A stretch of 64,000 bases of DNA, from NCBI GenBank assembly GCA_018262095.1, contig JAGTRW010000018.1:1-64000 (forward strand), given 5' to 3'. The position numbers and the translations under genes are program-made. Shown piece by piece: positions 7,560 to 59,715 of the stretch. The notes under the pieces are model-generated. The model had not been told where the DNA came from. It saw only the letters and a list, made by a program, of their open reading frames with translations, and searched no databases. The stretch is from Pseudomonadota bacterium (GTDB lineage: Bacteria > Pseudomonadota > Gammaproteobacteria > Burkholderiales > Rhodocyclaceae). Every line of letters begins with the position of its first letter. Positions within the stretch are counted from its first letter, which is position 1.

Positions 7560-9560
7560 CTAGTCAAAACGGAAGGAGAGTATCGTAATGTCGTCGCGCT
7601 GCGCATAGTCGCCCTGGTAGTCCTTGAGCGCCTGGTTGAGCGCGCTGGCTTGCTCGGCCATCGGTAGCCGGGCATGGCCAAGCAGCAATTGGGCAAAGCG
7701 CGTGTTGCCAAAACCATAACCCATTTCGCCGCCCGCCTGGTCGAGAAAGCCGTCGGTCGCCAGATAATAGGTCACGCCGGAGCGCAAGCTGACCAGCGTG
7801 TCTTCATAGTCCCCCTGATGGCGATCGCCGAGCGCCCGGCGCCCGCCCTTGATCTCGCCGACCTCGTCGCCATCGCTCCAGTAGAGACTGATCCTGGCGC
7901 CGGCGTAACACAGGCGGCGCTGTTCCCGATCGATATAGGCCAGGCCGACATCCAGATTGGTCGCCAGCGCCCGCGGTTGCTCGCAATCATGCAGCATGTC
8001 GCGCATGGCGCGGTCGGTATGCGAGAGAATGGCGGCGGGGCGATCGATGCCGACCTGGTTCATGGCGTGGTCGAGCGCCGAACGCGCGAGCATGGTCATC
8101 AACGCACCGGGGACGCTGTGGCCGGCGCAATCGACGACGCCGAGCAGATAGCGCTCGTGCTCGGCGCGAAAAACGTAGAAATCGCCGCCGACGACGTCGC
8201 GCGGATGCCAGATCACGAAAAAGTGCTCACCGAGCGCTTGTCGCAGTTGCTGGTCGGGCAGGATCGCGCGCTGGATCAGACTGGCGTAGTCGATCGAATC
8301 GTTGATCTGCCGGTGGGCGAGCTGCATATTCTGATTGACCGCTTCAAGCGCCTGCGTCCGCGCTTTTATCCGGCGCTCCAATTCAGCCGTATTGCCGCGA
8401 ATCTGGTTGGCCATGACGGAAAACGCCCGGCTCAGGTCGCCCAACTCATCGCCACCGGGCGGCGGCAGCGAAACGTCGAAATCGCCCTGCGCCATCGCCG
8501 CAGCGGACAACTGCAGCTTGCGCACGGAGCGCAGTACCAGTTTTTCCACCGCGTAGCCGAAGGCCAGCAGCAGGATCACGATGACGGCCACCAGCGCCGC
8601 GATGGCGGCATTTCGCCAGTTCTTGTCGAGCACCTGAGCGGCCTGCAGGTCGACGGCGGAGACGATGTGCCATTTGAGCTCCGGAATGTACGACAGCGCA
8701 AGCAGTTGCTCTCTGCCGTCGAGCGTGACGCGCAGCGTGCTCACTGCGCCAGGGTGTTCCATCGCTCGCTGCATCGACTGCGTCAGTTCGTCGCGCTGCG
8801 GCCCTTGCGGCAACTGTCCGGCCAGTGTCTGATCGACGCGGGTCGAGCCACCGGCCTGGTTGATCGCGATCAGCGCCTGATTGCGGTGCGCCTGGATCGC
8901 GCCCGCCTGATTGACGATGATCGGCGTCACCCCGGCTTCGGCGGTCGACATGAATTCGCTGAGAAATCCGGTGAGGTCGATGCCGGCGCCGGCGATGCCG
9001 ATTTTTCGCTCGTCGTGGTCCCGGATGCTCACATTGAGCCAGACCCGCGTGACCTGGAGGTGGGCGTCGTAATTGACATTGATGTTGTAGTCGTCGGCCT
9101 GCGCCAACGACCTGAAGAACCACGAGTCGGCCGGCTTGGCCGAATTGAGCTCGTAGCGCGGCTGATCGCTGTACGACTGGTCGCTGTCGTTGGCGTAAAA
9201 ACTCCGGGACAACGCGCTGGAGATGAAATACGCGTGATCGCGAAAATCCTTGCGGTAGCCCTCGGCTTCCTCGAAGAACAGCGCTTTCTTCGCCGGATCA
9301 TTTTCGTCCACCAGCCATTGCCGAACCAGAACCGAGTTAGCAAAACGCCGCGACAGCGCCAACTCGCGCGAGAGAGGCGCCAGGATGCTCTGCCGCTTGA
9401 GCTGCGTGAAATTGACCGCGTAGGCTTCGCCAAAATGGTTGCGTACGCTGTCCAGAACTTGCCAGCCGATCAGGCCGGCCGGAACGAAAGCCAACAGCGT
9501 GGCGAACACCAGCGCCAGCATCGCTTTGGCTCGCAGGCCGAATCTCCAGGTTGCCATCAA
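7560..9560 (-). CDS. siaA: SiaA-like membrane sensor Ser/Thr phosphatase (periplasmic sensor, HAMP, PP2C/SpoIIE)
   Basis: TM, periplasmic sensor, HAMP, then PRDVVGGDFYVFRAEHERYLLGVVDCAGHSVPGALMTM. Confidence 0.87.
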   Translation of the reverse strand: MMATWRFGLRAKAMLALVFATLLAFVPAGLIGWQVLDSVRNHFGEAYAVNFTQLKRQSILAPLSRELALSRRFANSVLVRQWLVDENDPAKKALFFEEAEGYRKDFRDHAYFISSALSRSFYANDSDQSYSDQPRYELNSAKPADSWFFRSLAQADDYNINVNYDAHLQVTRVWLNVSIRDHDERKIGIAGAGIDLTGFLSEFMSTAEAGVTPIIVNQAGAIQAHRNQALIAINQAGGSTRVDQTLAGQLPQGPQRDELTQSMQRAMEHPGAVSTLRVTLDGREQLLALSYIPELKWHIVSAVDLQAAQVLDKNWRNAAIAALVAVIVILLLAFGYAVEKLVLRSVRKLQLSAAAMAQGDFDVSLPPPGGDELGDLSRAFSVMANQIRGNTAELERRIKARTQALEAVNQNMQLAHRQINDSIDYASLIQRAILPDQQLRQALGEHFFVIWHPRDVVGGDFYVFRAEHERYLLGVVDCAGHSVPGALMTMLARSALDHAMNQVGIDRPAAILSHTDRAMRDMLHDCEQPRALATNLDVGLAYIDREQRRLCYAGARISLYWSDGDEVGEIKGGRRALGDRHQGDYEDTLVSLRSGVTYYLATDGFLDQAGGEMGYGFGNTRFAQLLLGHARLPMAEQASALNQALKDYQGDYAQRDDITILSFRFD

Positions 9561-9568
9561 AGCCTCAG

Positions 9569-9604
9569 TGACGTTTTTACCGCGCCGATTATAACGTGCC
9601 GACG
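9569..9604 (-). promoter_or_regulatory. Promoter-like block upstream of siaA, copy A of a 36-bp repeat containing TATAAT
   Basis: TGACGTTTTTACCGCGCCGATTATAACGTGCCGACG (+ strand), 34/36 identical to 11079-11114. Confidence 0.65.
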
Positions 9605-9635
9605 TGACCCCGATGCGGCAGCCCGTCTTGCGTGC

Positions 9636-11033
9636 TCATGGCCGGCGTCGCGACTGACTTGTCTTGGCATCGGCTATCTGCGTCTTGAGCAGGCTCAAGG
9701 CGATCGCCATTTCGGCCACCGGCGACTCCCAGTCGCCTCGCTTGGGCTGACGGAAGAGGCGAGTTTTTGGATACCAGGGATTGTCGTTGCGCCCACGCAA
9801 CCAGCGCCAATCCGTTTTGAAATACGGCAGCAGAATCCAGCACGGCACGCCCAGGGCGCCGGCCAGATGCGCTATGGCGGTATCGACGGTAATCAGCAGA
9901 TCTAGCTGGCTGAGCAGTGCCGCCGTATCGGAAAAATCATCGATGGCCGGCGCCAGATCGAGTAAAGGAAGCCCGGAAGGAACGCCCGGTAGAAGATCAT
10001 CGCTTTTTTGCAGACTGAAAAATCGCACGCCAGCGACCGACCACAGCGGCGCCAGAACCGCCAGTCCGGGCAGCGAACGGTCGCCATCGTTCAGATGCTG
10101 CGGATTGCCTCGCCAGACGATGCCGACGCGCAGTCCGTCGCCCGCCAACAAAGTGGCTTGGGCGGCGACACGCACTGCGTCCGGCAACAAATACGGAATC
10201 TGCGCCGGAATATTCGTCAGATCCGTTCGCGCATGAAGCGGCAAGCTCAGCAGAAAAGTCCAATAATCGTGGTTTCCGATCGGCGGCTTGAGGTCGGCCA
10301 GCGAGATCACCTCGTCCGCTCCGGCCAGCGTTTCCATCAGCGCCAGCTGACTCGGCCAGCACACCAGCGTCACCCGAGACGCGCCCTGCGCCTTGAGCCA
10401 GGGAAGGTAGCGGCAAAATTGAATGGCATCGCCCAGACCCTGCTCGGGAACGACCAGAATCGACTTCCCCGGCAACGGCTCGCCCTGCCATTGTCGGCAA
10501 CTCGCATTGCTCGGTGTGCCCGGCGTGGCATGAACGAACAGACGCCCCTCGTAAAGCGGCCATCCTTCGGCAAAGCGCTCCTGCATCAACAGCAGCAGAC
10601 CCAGATTCATCCTGGCCGGCTGAAAATCCGGTTCGATCGCCAAAGCCGTACGATAGCAGGCCTCTGCCTCCGGCTCGCGCCCGAGGTCGGCAAGCAAGGC
10701 GCCAAGGTTGGAATGCGCCGCAGCATAATTCGGACTGAGCTGAAGAGCGGTCCGATACAGGGCCTCAGCCTCAGCGCTTCGATCGAGACGCTCAAGCAGA
10801 ATGCCAAGATCGCTGTAGGCATACGCTGTCGATGGCGCCAGCTCGATGACGCGTTGCCAGCAAGTCGCCGCATAGGCGTAATCGGCGAGTTGCGTGGCGC
10901 AGTTGGCGGCAAATTCCCACAGCGCCGGATCATCGCAATACAGCGCCAGCCCCATGCGGGCGATGCGCAAAGCCTCGGGAAAATCCCCCAGCAGCAGCTG
11001 TTTTTCGACCTCGGAAACAAACGGGTTAGCCAT
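9636..11033 (-). CDS. TPR-repeat protein with C-terminal glycosyltransferase (GT-B/GT9-like) domain
   Basis: Serial TPRs (AAAHSNLGALLADLGREPEAEACYRTALAIEPDFQPARMNLG) and VVPEQGLGDAIQFCRYLP ... LDLLITVDTAIAHLAGALGVPCWILLP. Confidence 0.85.
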   Translation of the reverse strand: MANPFVSEVEKQLLLGDFPEALRIARMGLALYCDDPALWEFAANCATQLADYAYAATCWQRVIELAPSTAYAYSDLGILLERLDRSAEAEALYRTALQLSPNYAAAHSNLGALLADLGREPEAEACYRTALAIEPDFQPARMNLGLLLLMQERFAEGWPLYEGRLFVHATPGTPSNASCRQWQGEPLPGKSILVVPEQGLGDAIQFCRYLPWLKAQGASRVTLVCWPSQLALMETLAGADEVISLADLKPPIGNHDYWTFLLSLPLHARTDLTNIPAQIPYLLPDAVRVAAQATLLAGDGLRVGIVWRGNPQHLNDGDRSLPGLAVLAPLWSVAGVRFFSLQKSDDLLPGVPSGLPLLDLAPAIDDFSDTAALLSQLDLLITVDTAIAHLAGALGVPCWILLPYFKTDWRWLRGRNDNPWYPKTRLFRQPKRGDWESPVAEMAIALSLLKTQIADAKTSQSRRRP

Positions 11034-11078
11034 GAAATCTCTTGCCAAACGCCATCATCCAGAGGAAACGCCTCGGCA

Positions 11079-11114
11079 TGACGTTTTTGTCGCGCCGATT
11101 ATAACGTGCCGACG
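11079..11114 (-). promoter_or_regulatory. Promoter-like block upstream of the TPR/glycosyltransferase gene, copy B
   Basis: TGACGTTTTTGTCGCGCCGATTATAACGTGCCGACG; same position and orientation relative to its gene as copy A. Confidence 0.65.
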
Positions 11115-11281
11115 GCCCGCTGGCCGGTAGACGTCCACCGCGCTGATCCGCACTGCGCGCTTGCGCTTTGGTCGTATGCCGCGGTACTGTGGCGACATCC
11201 CCGCATCGCGATGTTTCGGCCATTTCGACATCAGCTCTTCGCTGAATGAAGCACGTCCCGGCAAAGGAAGCGATTTACCCA

Positions 11282-53419: not shown

Positions 53420-53779
53420 CAAGGCCTCTCCTGTTCTTGTCGAAAATGCGCCCCCTGCCGCAGGCGTCGATTATCCGCTCTTCGCGCGGCTTGCGACTCA
53501 AATATCGGCAAACGCCTGGTCCAGACCCGGGCAGTATATCGAGCGGTCTTAGCCCCCGGCTTTCAAGGGTATACTCGTCGCCTTCGCCACCCGTCTGCCG
53601 ATCGAAATGTCCGACCTGTCAGCAGCATCCCCGAGGATGCCCAGGAAATCTCAGAGCAAACGGAGATTTAGGCAGAATCAGCGGCCGCGCAGTGACCGGA
53701 GTGCTGGCGCTTTCGGCGGTCATGTCGTGCGAGCACAATCGGTGCAATAGGCCAAGAGCCTTTTGCCTCGTCCTGCTAG

Positions 53780-55012
53780 CTAGACGACTTTTCGGCGACT
53801 CTTTGCTACCGACAGAGCCACCGGCACAGACTTCACCTCTCTTGGCTTCCGCAACTCATTAAAAACTTCCGGCAGCATAACTGTCTGAAGGCTGCGCTGG
53901 CTGAAGACAAAGCGTCCATCAACAACAAACCCTAAGTCCGACCAAGGCACAGAAGTGTTCAGCAGCTCGATGGCTCGGGGGATATTCATCCCTTCGATCT
54001 TTGGGAAGAGCGCCAGGATGGACCCATCGTAGGCCTCACATACGTGCGTAAAGAATGGTGCCAATCTGCGCGTTCGTCCGTTCACATAGATCCGCGGGCT
54101 ACCAGTCGCATCATGGAAAACACGCCCCCACATCCACCAATTGGTTTCATCGAATGTCTTGACCCGGCGCCGGAGAAGCAAACCCTTATGCCGCCTTAGC
54201 GCAGGATGCCTAGCGTTGTAGATCATTCGCCGAGTCTGCCCCGTATCAATGGTCTTCGAGCAGACGAATTCGCGATTACCTTCGGGATGTTCAAACACGC
54301 GGTCAGCACCAGAGACCGCTCCCACCTTAACGTCAAATAGGCTTGCCAACGGCACGCTCAGCTGCTGCTTGGGAAACGTCAGCTGCCCGTCCATCGCCAC
54401 GAACTTGCGCGTCTCCCATACCCCTGACCATTCACGGTACTCAGTATTTCGACTAAAGTTGCCAAGTTCGTATCGAAAGATCGCGCAGTTGGGTACTGCG
54501 CCCTCGAACAACCGGGTGTCCCCCGTCTCAATCCAGTGCGTGATTGTTCCTTGTTCAAACAACCACTGGTTGAGTTTCCGGGCTGCTGTAAGTTTGATGA
54601 ATTCGCGAGGCACGATGAAAATCAGCTCTCCACCCGCCCGTAAATGCCGTACAGCTTTCTCGATGAAAAACAGTGCTAGGTTGGAACGGCCATCAAAGAG
54701 CGTTCCATCAAGCAATCGCTTGGTTTCGGGCCCGATATCTTGGTACTTCACATAAGGAGGGTTGCCGATGACCGTCTTGAACCGCTCGGTTAGGGGGTAT
54801 GCGAAGAAGTCCAGATTGAGTGCGTACTCAGGCGCAACGCGCGAGTCCAGCTCAATTGCAACGCAACCGGACAAATGACGCGAAAAAGCGCCGTCACCAC
54901 AGCTAGGCTCCAGCACTCGGCCACGGTACTTCCGCAAGCCCAACATCAGTTCGACGACTTGCGTCGGCGTAAAGACTTGGCCGAGCCCTTCAACATCTAG
55001 TTTGCGCTTCAA
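53780..55012 (-). CDS. Type II gamma-class N6-adenine DNA methyltransferase
   Basis: LGQVFTPTQVVELML, motif I LEPSCGDGAF, motif IV NPPYVKY, C-terminal DLGFVVDGRFVFSQRSL. Confidence 0.92.
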   Translation of the reverse strand: MKRKLDVEGLGQVFTPTQVVELMLGLRKYRGRVLEPSCGDGAFSRHLSGCVAIELDSRVAPEYALNLDFFAYPLTERFKTVIGNPPYVKYQDIGPETKRLLDGTLFDGRSNLALFFIEKAVRHLRAGGELIFIVPREFIKLTAARKLNQWLFEQGTITHWIETGDTRLFEGAVPNCAIFRYELGNFSRNTEYREWSGVWETRKFVAMDGQLTFPKQQLSVPLASLFDVKVGAVSGADRVFEHPEGNREFVCSKTIDTGQTRRMIYNARHPALRRHKGLLLRRRVKTFDETNWWMWGRVFHDATGSPRIYVNGRTRRLAPFFTHVCEAYDGSILALFPKIEGMNIPRAIELLNTSVPWSDLGFVVDGRFVFSQRSLQTVMLPEVFNELRKPREVKSVPVALSVAKSRRKVV

Positions 55013-55758
55013 TCCGACTCCCCCTCAACAACGGGTCCGTCACCACCCCACTCCATACGCAGCTCAGTACTCAGTTTGGGCACGATATGATTCTTAAAAG
55101 ACTGGAGGGCTTTAGCTCTCAGCACGAAAGTCTGACCGACAACGCTCAGCAGGTAGTCGACCGCCTCAGACCGATCCCTGCCAGAACGCTCCATGTTCTG
55201 GCTCCAGCATGCCTGGAACGGTGGGTTGCTTCCATTCGGTGTCACAGCACTCAACTGCAGTAAGCTCGTCCAGAATACCCGTCCAACGCCCGCCACGCTC
55301 TTCTCCACGACTAGGAAGTAGTAGTCACTCGCGCAGTTCTCACGCTCAAGCTTGGTTGCGAGGTTCTCGCAGAACACATCCCAGTTGCGGATTACTGAGT
55401 TACTCGGGCGTACCCCGGTCATGGCGTAGAACAAGCCAGCCTTGGATGCCACATTGTCGTTGCCCAGAAGGTTGGAGACCTTCAGATTGATAGGCATCCA
55501 AACGCTGCCATCTGGAGATTCAACCAGAAAGTCATACCAAGCCCCATTGGTAGCTACAGAGAATTTCAGGTTTTCCTGAAACCAAGGATGGCCTGCAGCA
55601 AAAGCCCTCAAGGAGTTTCCGATGATCTCCTCATTCTCCGTCGACTCGCGTCGAGCTTGTCCCCTCCCGTACGTAACAAGGGTGATGAAGCCTTGTTCCA
55701 AGCCGCGCCGAAGCTGCGTCGCAAGAGTGTTGAGGATTTCGTCGGCCGTTATAGGCAT
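55009..55758 (-). CDS. Putative Type II restriction endonuclease
   Basis: 4-bp overlap with the methyltransferase gene; WYDFLVESPDGSVWMPINLKVSN resembles PD-(D/E)xK core. Confidence 0.72.
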   Translation of the reverse strand: MPITADEILNTLATQLRRGLEQGFITLVTYGRGQARRESTENEEIIGNSLRAFAAGHPWFQENLKFSVATNGAWYDFLVESPDGSVWMPINLKVSNLLGNDNVASKAGLFYAMTGVRPSNSVIRNWDVFCENLATKLERENCASDYYFLVVEKSVAGVGRVFWTSLLQLSAVTPNGSNPPFQACWSQNMERSGRDRSEAVDYLLSVVGQTFVLRAKALQSFKNHIVPKLSTELRMEWGGDGPVVEGESD

Positions 55759-55835
55759 GAAGCGACAGTAAAAGGGGAGACAGCGTATTTTCCGAGCTTC
55801 GCGAGAAACAATCAACGCTTCGATCGCATCTGCAT

Positions 55836-56045
55836 TGAATTGCCTAGGGAATTGAGGAGACTCCAGTCATGAACAAGTCAAACAGGTATTCACCGAAAGT
55901 CAGAGAGTGCGCGGAACGGATGATACAGGAAGCGTGCAAGAACTACTCATCGCAATGGGCGGCGGTCGAATCGATTGCACCCAAGATTGGCTGTGCGGCG
56001 GTCACACTGCATGATAAGGTGAAAAAGCGCGAAATCGATGCAGGC
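55836..56045 (+). pseudogene. IS3-family left end: probable IRL plus truncated OrfA
   Basis: TGAATTGCCTAGGGAATTGAGGAGACTCCA then [60 protein letters not shown]; similarity then stops. Confidence 0.75.
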
Positions 56046-56142
56046 CGATGTGACAGTGGGACGATATCGGATAGAGGAGGAAATCTGCGAGTGCAAGATG
56101 GAAGGCAAATCAGTGTCTTTGATAAAATGGGCTATGAACTAG

Positions 56143-56352
56143 TGGACAATTCGCCTGCGGCGAACTGAGGCGCTTGCGGTAGACAACCCTTTGGGTTACC
56201 TACCGCACAGGGCCGACCTGGGCTTCATCTGCGACGGGCGCTTCCTCTTTACCCAGCGTTCGCTCGAGCAGACGCCGTTGCCGCGGGCCTTCGAGTCGTT
56301 CCTGCCGCAAGCCGGTGTAACATGGTGGGACAAACTCAAGAAGCTGTTCTGA
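56143..56352 (+). pseudogene. C-terminal remnant of a second gamma-class adenine methyltransferase
   Basis: Open frame without ATG: ...RADLGFICDGRFLFTQRSLEQTPLPRAFESFLPQAGVTWWDKLKKLF*; 16/29 identical to the C-terminus of the intact MTase. Confidence 0.78.
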
Positions 56353-56394
56353 CACTGATCAATCGCGCGTTGGCGCGCGATGGAGAGATACACC

Positions 56395-57690
56395 ATGGTT
56401 CCACATCTGAAAACAGCACTCTGCGGCCCGCTGCTCGCGCTCGAGGCGAAATTCCTCGACTCCGCGCCGACCATCGAGCGCTGGCTGCGTGGCCAATGGC
56501 AGGAGCACACGCCGCCGTTCTACGGCTCGGTCGACCTGCGCAACTCGGGCTTCAAGCTGGCGCCGGTCGACATGAACCTGTTTCCGGGCGGTTTCAACAA
56601 CCTCGATTCGGCCTTCCTGCCGCTCTGCGTCCAGGCCGCGATGAGCGCGATCGAGAAGATCTGCCCGAACGCCAAGAGCCTGTTGCTGATCCCCGAAAAC
56701 CACACGCGCAACCTCTTCTACCTGCAGAACGTCGCGCAGCTCGTCACCATCCTGCGCCTGACCGGACTCGACGTTCGCCTCGGTTCCTTGCTGCCCGACA
56801 TCGTCAAGCCGACGACGGTCGAGCTACCCAACGGCAGCTCGCTGCTGCTCGAACCGCTGGTCAGAAGCAAGTATCGTCTCGGCCTCGCAGGCTTCGACCC
56901 GTGCGCGATCCTGCTCAACAACGACCTGTCGGCCGGCATCCCGGAGATCCTCACCAATCTCAACGAACAGTTCCTGCTGCCGCCGCTGCACGCCGGCTGG
57001 GCGGTACGCCGCAAGTCCACCCACTTCGCCGCCTACGACGAGGTGGCTGGCGAGTTTGCCAAGCTGCTCGACATCGACCCCTGGCAGATCAACCCTTACT
57101 TCTCGGTCTGCGACAGCGTCAATTTCCACGAGCGGCAGGGCGAGGACTGCCTGGCCGCCAACGTCGACGCGGTGCTCGGCCTGATGCGCGAGAAGTACAA
57201 GGAATACGGCATCAGCGAGACGCCGTACGTGGTCGTCAAGGCCGACGCCGGCACCTACGGCATGGGCGTGATGACGGTCAAGGACGCTTCCGAGATCACC
57301 GGCCTTAACCGCAAGCAGCGCAACAAGATGTCGGTGATCAAGGAAGGCATGAGCGTCTCGCAGGTGATCATCCAGGAGGGGGTGCACACCAACGAGCGCG
57401 TCAGCGACGGCGTCGCCGAGCCGGTCGTCTACATGATCGACCGCTTCGTCGTCGGCGGCTTCTACCGCGTGCACTCGGGCCGCGCCAAGGACGAGAACCT
57501 CAACGCGCCGGGAATGCACTTCGAGCCGCTGGCGTTCGAGACGAGCTGCTGCCTGCCCGACCAGTGCCAGACCCCCGACGCGCCGCCCAACCGTTTCTAC
57601 GCCTACGGCGTCGTCGCGCGCCTGGCGCAGCTCGCCGCGTCGCTGGAGTTGGAACGCACGGCGCCAGTCGAAGAAGCGCTGGCTTCATGA
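56395..57690 (+). CDS. gshA: Glutamate--cysteine ligase (proteobacterial GshA type 2)
   Basis: NSGFKLAPVDMNLFPGGFNNL, VVVKADAGTYGMGVMTV; upstream of gshB. Confidence 0.94.
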   Translation: MVPHLKTALCGPLLALEAKFLDSAPTIERWLRGQWQEHTPPFYGSVDLRNSGFKLAPVDMNLFPGGFNNLDSAFLPLCVQAAMSAIEKICPNAKSLLLIPENHTRNLFYLQNVAQLVTILRLTGLDVRLGSLLPDIVKPTTVELPNGSSLLLEPLVRSKYRLGLAGFDPCAILLNNDLSAGIPEILTNLNEQFLLPPLHAGWAVRRKSTHFAAYDEVAGEFAKLLDIDPWQINPYFSVCDSVNFHERQGEDCLAANVDAVLGLMREKYKEYGISETPYVVVKADAGTYGMGVMTVKDASEITGLNRKQRNKMSVIKEGMSVSQVIIQEGVHTNERVSDGVAEPVVYMIDRFVVGGFYRVHSGRAKDENLNAPGMHFEPLAFETSCCLPDQCQTPDAPPNRFYAYGVVARLAQLAASLELERTAPVEEALAS

Positions 57691-59122: not shown

Positions 59123-59180
59123 CTTGGGAAACGGGACCTGGCTCACATTCAATAATCTCCACAAACGCATGGCGCGTCAC

Positions 59181-59208
59181 CGTCATTCCCGCGCAGGCGG
59201 GAATCCAG
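59181..59208 (+). repeat. REP-like hairpin, left copy
   Basis: CGTCATTCCCGCGCAGGCGGGAATCCAG. Confidence 0.85.
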
Positions 59209-59235
59209 AAAGACCGGAAGGAAAGGGGCGCCACG

Positions 59236-59529
59236 ATGGAGAAACAGGCTGCGGTATACCTCCTTGCCAGTCAACGCAACGGGACGCTCTATATCGGTGT
59301 GACCTCCAATTTGGTCAAGCGTATTTGGGAACACAGGAACAACGCCGTCGAAGGTTTCACTAAGCGCTATGGCGTGCACACTCTGGTGTACTACGAGCCA
59401 CACGCCACGATGGAGGCCGCCATCACGCGCGAGAAGCAGCTCAAGAAATGGAATCGTGCGTGGAAACTCAGGCTTGTCGAAGAACGCAATCCAGACTGGC
59501 GTGACCTATGGCCCGAAATTGTCGAATAG
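59236..59529 (+). CDS. GIY-YIG nuclease family protein (97 aa)
   Basis: AVYLLASQRNGTLYIGVTSNLVKRIWEHRN...KRYGVHTLVYYE...ITREKQLKKWNRAWKLRLVEERNPDWRDL. Confidence 0.93.
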   Translation: MEKQAAVYLLASQRNGTLYIGVTSNLVKRIWEHRNNAVEGFTKRYGVHTLVYYEPHATMEAAITREKQLKKWNRAWKLRLVEERNPDWRDLWPEIVE

Positions 59530-59570
59530 GTGACTGGATGAGCTCGTTCACCGCCGACGAGCCACGAACA

Positions 59571-59599
59571 CTGGATTCCCGCCTTCGCGGGAATGACCG
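59571..59599 (-). repeat. REP-like hairpin, right copy in inverted orientation
   Basis: CTGGATTCCCGCCTTCGCGGGAATGACCG; reverse complement matches the left copy apart from the loop. Confidence 0.85.
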
Positions 59600-59715
59600 G
59601 ATCTTTGCACGGGCGCAGCGGGATATGAATGAAAGCATGGCCCGGTCTGGCGTCGGCACGCATTTCGCTACGCACTGCTCAGCACGCCCCCGTGCGCCAA
59701 AACCGGAGTAATTGT

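Follow-up and report, generated by a model that had tools for sequence, protein, structure and literature searches.

In the 64,000-nucleotide stretch of a Rhodocyclaceae genome analysed here (the window), a methyltransferase gene resident upstream of gshA has almost certainly been disrupted and replaced by a restriction-modification (R-M) cassette. The best overall explanation, which we consider likely, is that the R-M system replaced a resident orphan methyltransferase (MTase) and, more probably than not, took over its methylation mark. The event is a clear case of known processes, R-M mobility and gene replacement; its interest lies in the victim, a near-universal orphan from the same family as the incoming MTase, in a nuclease family that has no public model, and in the apparent existence of solitary nucleases.

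Two ends of one gene around a foreign cassette

The relevant features of the window, from left to right, are:

53562-53577, + strand: promoter box of the resident MTase, TTCAAGGGTATACTCG, with a -10-like TATACT; TTCAAGnGTATACT stands at the matching place before the intact congener gene
53608-53635, + strand: 5′ end of the resident MTase, ATG and about 8-9 codons (MSDLSAASP) followed by the junction; aligned to the congener start-codon region
53636-53779, no strand: left filler, 144 bp running from the left junction to the stop of the R-M MTase; no recognisable origin
53780-55012, - strand: R-M methyltransferase of 410 aa with a TTG start, Eco57I-type N6-adenine MTase (Pfam Eco57I E=1.7e-17; PADLOC MTase_II E=4e-121)
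55009-55761, - strand: predicted restriction endonuclease of ~249 aa, starting at about 55761; homologues adjoin the same MTase in L063-L065
55852-56032, + strand: IS3-family (IS1416-like) fragment, the start of orfA (ORF 55869-56168); tblastn to IS3 transposases 60% identity, E=1e-17
56033-56206, no strand: right filler, 174 bp of degenerate or unassigned DNA that extends to the right junction and closes with an imperfect palindrome (56175-56207)
56209-56352, + strand: 3′ remnant of the resident MTase, the final 46 codons and stop; 83% identity to the intact congener protein over its residues 379-424
56380-57690, + strand: gshA, glutamate-cysteine ligase (Pfam GshA E=7e-198), syntenic with the intact MTase in congeners

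The plus-strand translation of 56143-56352 ends in RADLGFICDGRFLFTQRSLEQTPLPRAFESFLPQAGVTWWDKLKKLF and a stop. An earlier, sequence-only reading had matched this fragment to the C-terminus of the window's intact R-M MTase, and BLASTP bears the match out (16/30 residues identical, 21/30 positive, E = 3e-10); the MTase homology belongs to 56209-56352, while the first part of the supposed fragment, 56143-56208, is not MTase sequence. Every congener DNA alignment to the right flank starts at 56207 or later and runs on into gshA. Of the 28 congeners, 27 have the 46 residues of the remnant in an open frame that is nearly always full length, usually 430-490 codons, with identities of 67-89% and E-values from 1e-12 to 7e-26, far above chance, the sole exception being G001, a 75% complete genome; and a full-length MTase is present in relatives at exactly the homologous place upstream of gshA. 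The same reading was right about the host-like codons of the fragment (GC3 83%, compared with 90% for gshA and 62% for the R-M MTase) and about the two outward-pointing MTase C-termini that bound the R-M block, and the TWWDKLKKLF tail it remarked on is indeed present, as the ordinary tail of the congeners' intact MTase. The remnant is, by homology, the C-terminus of an Eco57I-type N6-adenine methyltransferase. That it merely resembles one by chance, or is a piece of some unrelated intact protein, is so improbable that we regard it as ruled out: 46/47 residues align to the end of the intact MTase in those 27 congeners, beside gshA, and nothing was found in favour of such an accident.

The left end of the resident gene, which had escaped the earlier reading, lies to the left of the R-M block and consists of the promoter box and start codon. 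The box columns GTATACT are invariant across the aligned congeners, and the box has a single match in the window against 0.08 expected when up to 2 mismatches are allowed. The N-terminal MSDLSAASP resembles congener starts such as MSPTISAAA and MSAPLALSP, a short in-frame similarity that places the left junction only to within a few bases. Since the box and start stand to the left of the block and the 3′ remnant to its right, the resident gene encloses the R-M block, with codon ~9 on one side and codon 379 on the other, and ~2.57 kb of foreign DNA (53636-56206) has thus taken the place of resident codons ~10-378, a deletion-substitution in which about 1.1 kb of the resident gene was exchanged for about 2.57 kb of foreign DNA. 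The gene order panE, dctP, MTase, gshA is common to the window locus and congeners L024 and L033.

A search of this genome with the intact congener protein returned only the R-M MTase and the remnant, so that no other intact resident copy exists in the assembly. With an intact gene at this place in relatives, both ends surviving here, and no other copy, the earlier proposal holds: an older methyltransferase gene that stood upstream of gshA has been overwritten. One could argue instead that a foreign R-M contig was joined into the MTase gene during assembly, because the event is carried by only one assembly, a draft of 82 contigs with 2% contamination, and is found in no other genome; but the flanks are the two ends of one gene, in the correct order and on the correct strand, within a contig of 113,897 bases, and the lack of an intact resident copy elsewhere also speaks against such a chimera, which we consider highly improbable.

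The cassette and its nuclease family

The cassette comprises a two-gene minus-strand R-M operon and an IS3 orfA fragment. The nuclease TGA overlaps the MTase TTG start (TTGA), as it also does in L063 and L064, and closely similar pairs (80-90% nuclease identity) occur in Aromatoleum diolicum (L063), a Pseudomonadota MAG (L064), and a Dactylopiibacterium MAG (L065), where the neighbours of the pair differ and the contexts are unrelated. The R-M MTase, which scores 64.5 bits against PF07669 (cut-off 25.3), is 87% identical to the A. diolicum homologue, there beside the same nuclease, and similarity to L063 spans only 53828-55793. The R-M genes have a GC content of 54% versus 63% for the window, and a GC3 of 62-64% versus 83-90% for the remnant and gshA. 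None of the other 28 congeners has the cassette, making the event unique among 29 congeners; the R-M pair is kept together in 13 genomes, in varied contexts.

An insertion sequence had been reported beside the R-M genes, and IS3 sequence is present, though as a fragment of orfA rather than a full element: blastn gives 71% identity to IS1416-like elements over 55852-56032, the protein match to IS3 transposases ends at residue 68-74 of ORF 55869-56168, and a complete element with orfA, orfB, and terminal inverted repeats is ruled out, as only the start of orfA matches. The fragment is single copy in this genome. The left filler has no plasmid match, and its own-genome matches, in ABC-transporter and N-acetylglutamate synthase-like genes, are short and weak and look like chance; the right filler has no congener DNA match, and plasmid and own-genome searches with it gave nothing useful. 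The imperfect 15-base palindrome at 56175-56207 (TGCGGTAGACAACCC / GGGTTACCTACCGCA) abuts the right junction exactly; it is not a repeated element, as the genome has only one copy of its core and viral contigs have none. A search for an RNA element found none. Elsewhere in the window, gshB and apbE enclose a small GIY-YIG domain ORF (59239-59526) with copies of a GTCATTCCCGC..GCGGGAATCCAG-like repeat on both sides (59180-59600).

Searches with the nuclease against Pfam, NCBIfam, and PADLOC models gave no match. Homologues were found in 17 of 399 genomes of the family (13 of 68 genera), one weak relative was found beyond the family among 369 genomes of the class, and there were none in the phylum sample and none in viral contigs or plasmids. 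W75, D77, N92, and K94 are invariant in the 17-row alignment. An AlphaFold model built from these 17 sequences is confident (pLDDT 90.4, pTM 0.88), where an earlier one built from 5 sequences (pLDDT 37) was useless. The best Foldseek matches of the model are R.SwaI (E = 3e-6, probability 1.00, TM-score 0.50-0.61) and HincII, EcoRV-like PD-(D/E)XK endonucleases of similar length; the identity is only 11-16%, and the catalytic motif here is D77...N92-x-K94. Judged by its modelled fold, the protein is a PD-(D/E)XK restriction endonuclease, and the window pair is very probably a functional type II R-M system. Its nuclease brings to light a restriction-enzyme family unrecognised by the annotation libraries that were searched.

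The resident methyltransferase as a family-wide orphan

Aligning 36 loci places an intact protein of about 424 aa immediately ahead of gshA and gshB, with panE, dctP, or mutM on the other flank of the congener gene. The intact resident protein scores 59.5 bits against PF07669 (Eco57I), for which the cut-off is 25.3, and the NPPY motif is present in all aligned MTase rows shown, including the intact resident protein and the window R-M MTase. For the N-terminal half of the MTase the closest solved relative is M.TaqI (phmmer E=7e-18), a match limited to residues 17-190 that leaves the recognition half unmatched by sequence.

Among 111 sampled genomes of the family, each at least 95% complete, 107 have an MTase homologue, nearly always once; the homologue-free genomes are the three of genus g316 and G466. 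In 66 of the 104 genomes having both genes, the counterpart of the resident METHYLTRANSFERASE precedes gshA on the same strand at a distance of at most 8 kb, and in 55 the distance is no more than 250 bases. No nuclease adjoins the gshA-linked MTase in congeners with the region assembled, nor does an adjacent nuclease of the same family accompany the MTase homologue in the four other genera inspected. On this distribution, the resident MTase is an orphan, conserved and vertically kept in the lineage. A search of openly accessible papers for orphan methyltransferases or methylomes of Accumulibacter or Rhodocyclaceae gave nothing relevant. The locus also brings out a methyltransferase near-universal in one betaproteobacterial family, of which we met no description in that literature.

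The remnant had been seen as the ghost of an older methylation gene in a defence hotspot. A resident MTase it is, but a near-universal orphan rather than an older defence system, and the hotspot is not supported, as no other congener has the cassette and this place is otherwise occupied by the orphan. Succession of R-M systems at one site could account for an R-M system and an IS fragment found there together; against it, the congener MTase, where the region is assembled, stands without a nuclease between panE, dctP, or mutM and gshA, the nuclease is in no other congener sampled, the R-M pairs of other genera sit away from gshA, and no varied defence cargo was seen at the site among the congeners examined. 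We find such a succession scarcely credible.

A probable shared target site and a proposed transfer of the mark

Whether the incoming enzyme could have assumed the role of the resident one depends on their specificities. Four lines of evidence bear on this: i) the incoming R-M MTase is a distant homologue of the resident type, ~50% identical, target-recognition half included (48% in the recognition half, 46-61% in the catalytic half); ii) G448 and G705 each have an intact nuclease gene without an adjacent MTase, and the sole MTase homologue of each genome is gshA-linked; iii) an R-M pair and a gshA-linked MTase occur together in G542, G608, and G537; and iv) the R-M MTase is the only homologue in 7 of 13 pair-bearing genomes, whereas 4 of ~103 others have no homologue (Fisher 1e-5, ignoring phylogeny and with counts from different genome draws). 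Taken together, they are consistent with an orphan acting on the R-M system's own site, in the way that Dcm acts on that of EcoRII. On balance we favour the view that the two MTases act on one site or on overlapping sites and that the incoming enzyme took over the resident's function, because solitary nucleases are accompanied by the gshA-linked MTase only, R-M carriers often lack a separate copy, and the recognition half is about as conserved as the catalytic half.

The two MTase types are distinct in a tree, where the gshA-linked MTases (26 rows and 2 solo) split from the R-M MTases (13 rows and 5 solo) at 99/92, and the window R-M MTase groups with those of Aromatoleum and the two MAGs. Congener L045 (G004) has, besides its gshA-linked copy, a second MTase of the R-M clade without a nuclease (1372-2538).

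On the favoured reading, a mobile type II R-M operon entered the resident gene between panE or dctP and gshA, perhaps with the help of an IS or by illegitimate recombination, with the IS3 element, now a fragment, probably either carrying the operon in or arriving later. A chromosome already methylated at the R-M site on arrival would have rendered the nuclease harmless and establishment easy; the resident orphan would have become redundant and could have been disrupted at little cost, the mark being maintained by the incoming MTase, and the cell would have gained restriction. Alternatively, an R-M system of different specificity may have landed in a dispensable orphan, in which case this species just lost the old mark. 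At about 50% identity, MTases can have different specificities, and the mark is not strictly essential, given that four genomes of the family have no homologue; but the pairing of solitary nucleases with only a gshA-linked MTase in two genera, the enrichment of genomes with the R-M MTase only, and recognition and catalytic halves that are conserved to a like degree make such a loss rather unlikely, and we continue to prefer transfer of the mark.

The proposed logic is that of Dcm, a chromosomal orphan MTase of E. coli which can protect cells from the EcoRII nuclease (PMC3874152): in both cases a chromosomal orphan meets a mobile R-M system with a homologous MTase. The cases differ in that the shared site of Dcm and EcoRII, CCWGG, has been demonstrated (PMC3874152) whereas here we infer shared specificity; in that the R-M system here destroyed the orphan gene and sits physically within it; and in that Dcm and EcoRII are cytosine-5 enzymes whereas those here are of the N6-adenine type.

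The G448 and G705 nucleases also resemble the separated R-M systems of Ershova et al. 2012 (PMC3488263), in which nuclease genes have no adjacent MTase and the presumptive cognate MTase lies elsewhere, except that the proposed partner here is a near-universal, gshA-linked family orphan. An active nuclease without a protecting MTase would be highly toxic (PMC3488263). In both solitary nucleases Gln replaces a mostly conserved Glu44, and to judge from that residue the proteins might be weak or dead. The solitary genes, all intact, lie at 5585-6490 in L096 (G448), 1892-2653 in L098 (G705), and 3405-4187 in L094 (G435), and the three loci are candidate separated R-M systems relying on the core MTase. 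An integrase-like gene (9455-11164) lies near the G448 nuclease and a resolvase-like fragment near that of G705.

Orphan methyltransferases are often regarded as leftovers of R-M systems; here the traffic is reversed, and a conserved orphan is displaced by an R-M system whose MTase is of the same family. The chances seem to us about even that the family keeps a core orphan MTase, usually adjacent to gshA, which has its target site in common with a mobile R-M family; that the mark makes the lineage permissive for R-M systems and solitary nucleases; and that in this genome the R-M system replaced the core gene inside its own frame with the mark preserved. If the specificities match, the locus would be a natural test of handing a core epigenetic mark from one enzyme to another, and would bear on why solitary nucleases survive.
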